Source: an uncultured Woeseiaceae bacterium
Lineage (GTDB): Bacteria > Pseudomonadota > Gammaproteobacteria > Steroidobacterales > Woeseiaceae
NCBI GenBank assembly: GCA_945788575.1
Contig: CALZMR010000004.1
Coordinates: forward strand, 1-32,953
Direction of reading: 5' to 3'
Length of the DNA: 32,953 nucleotides
Shown: positions 26,951 to 27,031 of the stretch, piece after piece
Layout of the letters: every line of letters begins with the position of its first letter
Numbering within the stretch: position 1 is the stretch's first letter
The notes under the pieces: model-generated
Databases searched by the model: none
Told to the model about the DNA's origin: nothing
What the model saw: only the letters and a program-made list of their open reading frames with translations
Translations under genes and position numbers: made by a program

Positions 26951-27031
26951 CTTGACCGGCTGACACGCCTTCCTCGCTCGGGAATAGACTTTGCTATTCC
27001 GCTCGTTCGGAAAACGTGTCAGCCGGGCAAG
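26951..27031. repeat. 81-bp inverted-repeat element between gltB and gltD
   Basis: CTTGACCGGCTGACACG (26951-26967) and CGTGTCAGCCGGGCAAG (27015-27031) pair over 17 bases with one mismatch. Inside, GGAATAG-ACTTTG-CTATTCC (26981-27000) is a perfect 7-bp hairpin with a six-base loop. The flanks between are partly complementary, so the whole could fold as one long imperfect hairpin. It may be a small mobile element (MITE or REP-like) or a structured mRNA spacer. No terminator-like T run follows. Confidence 0.75.

Follow-up and report, generated by a model that had tools for sequence, protein, structure and literature searches.

A dispersed MITE-like palindrome of Woeseiales, with one copy between gltB and gltD and signs of a strand-specific fold

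The two glutamate synthase genes gltB and gltD are separated by an inverted repeat in the stretch of 32,953 nt analysed here (hereafter the window; contig CALZMR010000004.1, positions 1 to 32,953, from an uncultured Woeseiaceae bacterium). The question raised by this locus is what the repeat is and what it does there. A sequence-only reading had proposed an element of 81 bp, which could be either a MITE-like insertion or an RNA element tuning the ratio of GltB to GltD.

The arms of 17 nt with one mismatch (26951-26967 and 27015-27031) and the perfect 7-bp hairpin nested inside them (GGAATAG/CTATTCC) were both found in the window as described, and the arms could be extended to 23 nt at 87%. The gap of 166 bases between the genes was likewise confirmed, with the gltB stop codon (TGA) at 26907-26909 and the gltD start at 27076. 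The inverted repeat of 81 bp is real but is merely the core of a longer palindrome, which runs outward to 26910-27074 and reaches both genes; this imperfect palindrome of 163-165 bp folds as one single long hairpin and occupies the gap except for one base (Table 1). The impression that the pairing lies far beyond chance was borne out, with 0/200 shuffles folding equally well in each test: z was -6.35 for DNA folding of the 81-bp core, -7.0 for RNA folding of the whole gap on the plus strand with one extra base (-77.2 kcal/mol) and -12.5 for RNA folding of the whole element on the minus strand (-102.8 kcal/mol). The family strand of this copy is antisense to gltBD. The TC doublet at the edges of the core, already doubted as a target duplication, is ruled out as one, the true ends lying 41 and 43 bases further out and carrying a TA on one side and a degraded TA on the other. 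The gltD frame is open upstream into part of the element, up to a GTG at 27016 (27016-28485).

Table 1. Coordinates of the element, its parts and the adjoining genes in the window
Feature	Position	Strand	Remarks
Whole palindromic element	26910..27074	minus (family orientation)	GCC...GGC of 163 bp (26911-27073), with one further base on either side
Core of the sequence-only reading	26951..27031		middle stem and apical hairpin, 81 bp
TA at the gltD-side end	27074..27075		putative copy of the target duplication
AA at the gltB-side end	26909..26910		TA in most copies; includes last base of gltB stop
Left internal loop strand	27040..27050	minus	GCGTAAGATCG; bulge and GA, kink-turn-like on paper
Opposite internal loop strand	26935..26943	minus	CGAGAGCGC
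Apical stem-loop	26972..27010	minus	most conserved region in the family; internal loop CCGA / GAGG
Hypervariable outer stem, 5' side	27062..27068	minus	alignment columns 7-13
Hypervariable outer stem, 3' side	26916..26922	minus	alignment columns 159-165
gltB, glutamate synthase large subunit	22470..26909	plus	intact; NCBIfam NF008730
gltD, glutamate synthase small subunit	27076..28485	plus	intact; NCBIfam TIGR01318

Gaps between gltB and gltD were read at 30 loci, among matches in 37 of 41 genomes, and were -1 at 16 loci, 2 to 11 at 12, 124 at one and 166 in the window. The claim that the two genes are often closely spaced and that the element widens the gap thus holds, the distance being at most 11 nt (range -1 to 11) in 28 of the 29 relatives and usually a 1-nt overlap, with stop and start mostly joined as TGATG or TAATG. 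The element is missing from the junction in all 29 relatives, and among the 30 loci it is present in the window's genome only; it is an insertion at this position. The 124-bp gap (L040, from G050 of the same genus) contains an unrelated stable hairpin. On its gltD side the window copy has GGC-TA-ATG, which is what an insertion into the TA of a TAATG junction should leave behind. Its gltB side has changed, and a TA duplication is therefore not proven by this site alone. The element would here have split two genes that normally overlap or nearly touch, both of which remained intact, and the window copy is a diverged and probably old insertion into gltBD without visible damage to the genes.

The proposal that an RNA element tunes the GltB:GltD ratio draws on the position between both genes, where a hairpin of -77 kcal/mol would be placed in the gltBD mRNA. 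It is very improbable in our judgement, as the junction is free of the element in 29/29 relatives, the same element adjoins unrelated genes elsewhere and the preserved fold sits opposite the gltBD mRNA. The antisense position of the family strand, together with its mixed orientation to neighbouring genes across the copies, argues against a common cis role in mRNA.

Other copies were found readily. The window's genome holds five full copies (the window copy and four at 72-78% identity to it) and one core-deleted copy; matches were obtained in 11 of 73 genomes of the same genus and in at least 19 of 396 genomes of the same order, covering 6 of 72 genera and three families, which is an undercount, since two candidates per genome were scored in the order-wide search. 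At least 73 distinct copies were collected, a lower bound because copies with their core inside the stretch of another copy were excluded, and 55 of them are near full length with both ends. One genome of the same genus (G021) gave 20 reported matches and contains the end sequence 46 times. Seventeen stretches in a genome contig collection matched the exact pattern of the apical loop, and the named records among them were Woeseiaceae, Woeseia or MAGs of unclassified Gammaproteobacteria or Proteobacteria; Woeseiaceae are part of Woeseiales within Gammaproteobacteria. The same pattern had no match in viral contigs, and no similarity to the family was found in plasmids. The window had no match in Rfam, and five copy-bearing loci searched at E up to 1 gave four hits, far below the gathering scores. 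No prior description of the family was found in the literature searched, which left most subscription papers and ISfinder outside its reach.

Several features of individual copies were recorded. Deletion derivatives (L113, L117, L120, L016, L021 and L073) retain one or both ends and have lost the core, as is expected for unstable long palindromes. Four copies (L160, L175, L193 and L196) carry an insert of about 48-50 bp in an internal loop, which folds into small hairpins and, read by eye, would give APQEYFLGLSGDNPQG or similar, with differences that look synonymous. Nine G021 contigs (C7, C8, C15, C24, C27, C30, C50, C56 and C57) end inside the element or a few bases from it; with so many contigs ending there, the palindrome evidently breaks assemblies.

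The ends were analysed in the 55 copies in which both are present, as were strand energies, internal loops and the variability of the outer stem. TA precedes the first G in 39/55 copies (16 left ends are not TA) and follows the last C in 45/55 (10 right ends are not TA). Of the 39 left TAs, 32 are preceded by C, 6 by T and 1 by A, and 30 of the 45 right ones are followed by G, giving the end pattern C-TA-[GCCCG...CGGGC]-TA-G. We infer from these end statistics that the element would be inserted at the TA of CTAG with duplication of the TA. Tenzen and Ohtsubo reportedly observed in 1991 that IS630 prefers TA in CTAG.

The stop codon of the adjoining gene lies exactly at the element boundary, as a TAG spanning it, at 38 of 82 called gene ends. 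No special preference for stop codons is needed for this, since the 109 CTAG sites in 18 G021 stretches are themselves distributed with 29 at stops, 47 in intergenic positions and 33 in genes. As the element starts with G at both ends, a stop codon that it hits, whether TAG or TAA, would be restored as TAG and no harm would be done, a design that would explain how the repeat lands harmlessly in stop codons.

Covariation of the paired positions was determined on an alignment (A2) of 29 copies, seven of them from G021, and is very strong: the RNAalifold structure contains 59 pairs, of which 41 have changed on both sides, with 93.9% of the cells paired against 78.9% in 500 shuffles, and with a covariation score of 0.46 against 0.19 for the shuffles (0/500 as high) and at most 0.09 for slid controls. 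The terminal arms (columns 2-20 with 152-170) are paired in 94.9% of the cells, and in the outer stem 0.88 of the cells are paired when an arm is set against its own partner, compared with 0.52 against arms of other genomes. Covariation over the whole length is unusual for a MITE. In G000, G082 and G083 the seven outermost pairs differ from copy to copy, with an identity between copies of 0.55-0.65 in these pairs and 0.78-0.86 elsewhere in the element, while in G021, G124, JALWKV, G307 and G300 they are no more variable than the remainder; pairing in the hypervariable outer pairs remains at 85%. Columns 7-13 and 159-165, which differ among copies within some genomes, are still paired even between orthologous copies. 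In one orthologous pair (G082 C38 and G083 C19) conservation exceeds that of the flanks except in the outer stem, whereas the other (L180 and L083) decays at the same pace as its flanks, and given this disagreement no host function is claimed.

An alternative is that the host employs the element, as a structured RNA or as a 3'-end hairpin working in both directions, for transcription stop or for mRNA stabilisation of the flanking genes, as proposed for YPAL, and that this use has spread and preserved it. This was weighed against the gene context of all 73 copies where the flanks allowed gene calls, which were heuristic calls from frame composition made with no gene finder. By these calls, 24 of the 50 copies with both flanks called sit between convergent genes and most neighbouring genes end, rather than start, at the element; the folds are very stable on both strands, and the first orthologous pair, its outer stem excepted, has changed less than the flanking sequence, all of which would suit such a hairpin. 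We nevertheless regard it as unlikely, because gene orientation is mixed, the second orthologous pair has decayed along with the sequence around it, most genomes of the same genus have no copies, no terminator-like site was found within 26800-27200 of the window, and the position at stop codons is already explained by the distribution of CTAG sites.

The two strands of the element differ. The family strand is the more stable one in 53/55 copies with RNA parameters (MFE -94.2 versus -78.7) and in 52/55 with DNA parameters, in a set of copies that share ancestry. Mismatches in the two main helices are G-T in 85 and A-C in 33 events, counted by genome, column and type (p 1.8e-6), and by mismatch column 22 are G-T and 5 are A-C, with neither set of counts fully independent owing to shared ancestry. 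The GC skew, determined as a check for replication-strand bias, is near zero in 18 G021 stretches. The internal loops are asymmetric and have been kept as well. The lower one is GA x GG in 30/55 copies, where the bulge is shorter, and GA x GA in 19/55. Loop type goes with bulge type (GG is accompanied by an AT bulge, GA mostly by TAA), a link that may stem from a split into two lineages instead of recurrent change; GA x GA also occurs in the apical loop in 40/55 copies. In a kink-turn, two helices are separated by a 3-nt bulge and, after it, tandem G-A pairs; on paper the lower loop would fit this consensus.

A rival explanation is an ordinary double-stranded-DNA MITE, whose transposase reads the end sequences only and whose arms are kept complementary by template switching, with no fold being selected. 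Template switching at replication creates and maintains hairpin stems and can homogenise their arms, according to PMC8794818, and TA/CTAG ends are described as typical of DDE transposition in PMC2170065. One copy (L193, 100-225, minus strand) has two left-type arms, one of them with the insert, which points to a copied or inverted arm. This explanation is a plausible one, to which we give somewhat less than even weight. It does not predict the excess of G-T over A-C or a consistently more stable strand, and arm copying should wipe out asymmetric internal loops, yet the loops persist; template switching can thus account for much of the covariation, but not for the strand bias or the kept asymmetric loops.

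From the excess of G-T over A-C, the more stable strand and the kept asymmetric loops, we infer that recognition acts on one strand folded in single-stranded form (ssDNA or RNA). A trans-acting factor would read this fold beyond the double-stranded end sequence alone, and such recognition would let the stem sequence drift while pairing and internal loops persist. Recognition of the fold and template-switch repair may both act on the stems. The element is small, dispersed, multi-copy and free of a transposase gene, with terminal inverted repeats; together with the relatives' gltB-gltD junctions that lack it and the TA-type ends, this agrees with the MITE-like insertion first suspected. On balance, it is likely to be a non-autonomous MITE-like mobile element of Woeseiales, consisting of one imperfect hairpin of 163-165 nt, inserted at the TA of CTAG and recognised through the fold of one strand. 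The family is apparently undescribed, and what sets it apart is a fold that covaries and is specific to one strand. A bolder reading, put forward only tentatively and as rather doubtful, is that of a class of small mobile elements recognised by the shape into which one particular strand (ssDNA or RNA) folds in three dimensions, with loops resembling kink-turns and a paired spacer specific to each copy, and moved by a putative enzyme, as opposed to a decayed, end-defined insertion sequence.

Four families were searched for a mobilising partner, and none was found with matching ends, in draft genomes in which several G021 contigs break within the element, so that a partner could be missed. An IS630-type transposase (DDE_3) was found in 0/4 genomes; Y1_Tnp was present in 5/7, and missing from G000 and from G021, the genome with the freshest burst; DDE_Tnp_1 was present in 2/6, with flanks in G021 that by eye show ends other than those of the element; and a reverse transcriptase (RVT_1) occurred in 1/8 genomes with no link to the element. 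For the genomes searched, these four were rejected as partners, being either not found or not linked. Two DDE_Tnp_1 insertion sequences of G021 (L145 and L147) have CTAG at their ends by eye, and their inverted repeats differ. No long element with the end sequence of G021 at its borders was found.

Woeseiales are common in marine sediment and little studied, and an order-wide mobile repeat is here added for them. The copies diverge within one genome, keep their pairing and show a strand bias, and therefore offer a natural test between selection on a folded strand and template-switch repair of long hairpins. If the fold is read by a mobilising enzyme, that enzyme would be worth finding.

Known systems resemble the family in part. 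ERIC occurs in E. coli, and no similarity to the family was found in the E. coli collection. ERIC and Correia/NEMIS are, according to PMC2229807, small palindromic MITEs with terminal TA, and the present MITE-like element resembles them in this. The GTAG REPs with their RAYT transposases and the TIRtron repeats are palindromic with termini that often provide a TAG stop codon, as here, according to PMC3733652; the REPs carry GTAG at a single end and measure 20-40 bp, compared with 165 bp and TA at both ends, and the Y1 tyrosine transposase is absent from two of the seven genomes named above. Rickettsia palindromic elements form a coding repeat; here an open frame crosses some copies. YPAL (RU-2), the Yersinia palindromic sequence, is alike by description in its size of about 168 bp, palindrome, dispersal, adjacency to genes and open frame, but according to PMC2229807 it has ends that lack TA and makes duplications of 3-26 bp, whereas TA stands at most ends here, in a different host order. 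RUP of pneumococcus and other MITEs mobilised by IS630 have a TA target and terminal inverted repeats (PMC2229807); the end statistics of the element match their TA target and CTAG preference, and terminal inverted repeats are present in it too; it differs from them in that DDE_3 was found in none of four genomes and in that the inverted repeat covers the entire element and covaries.
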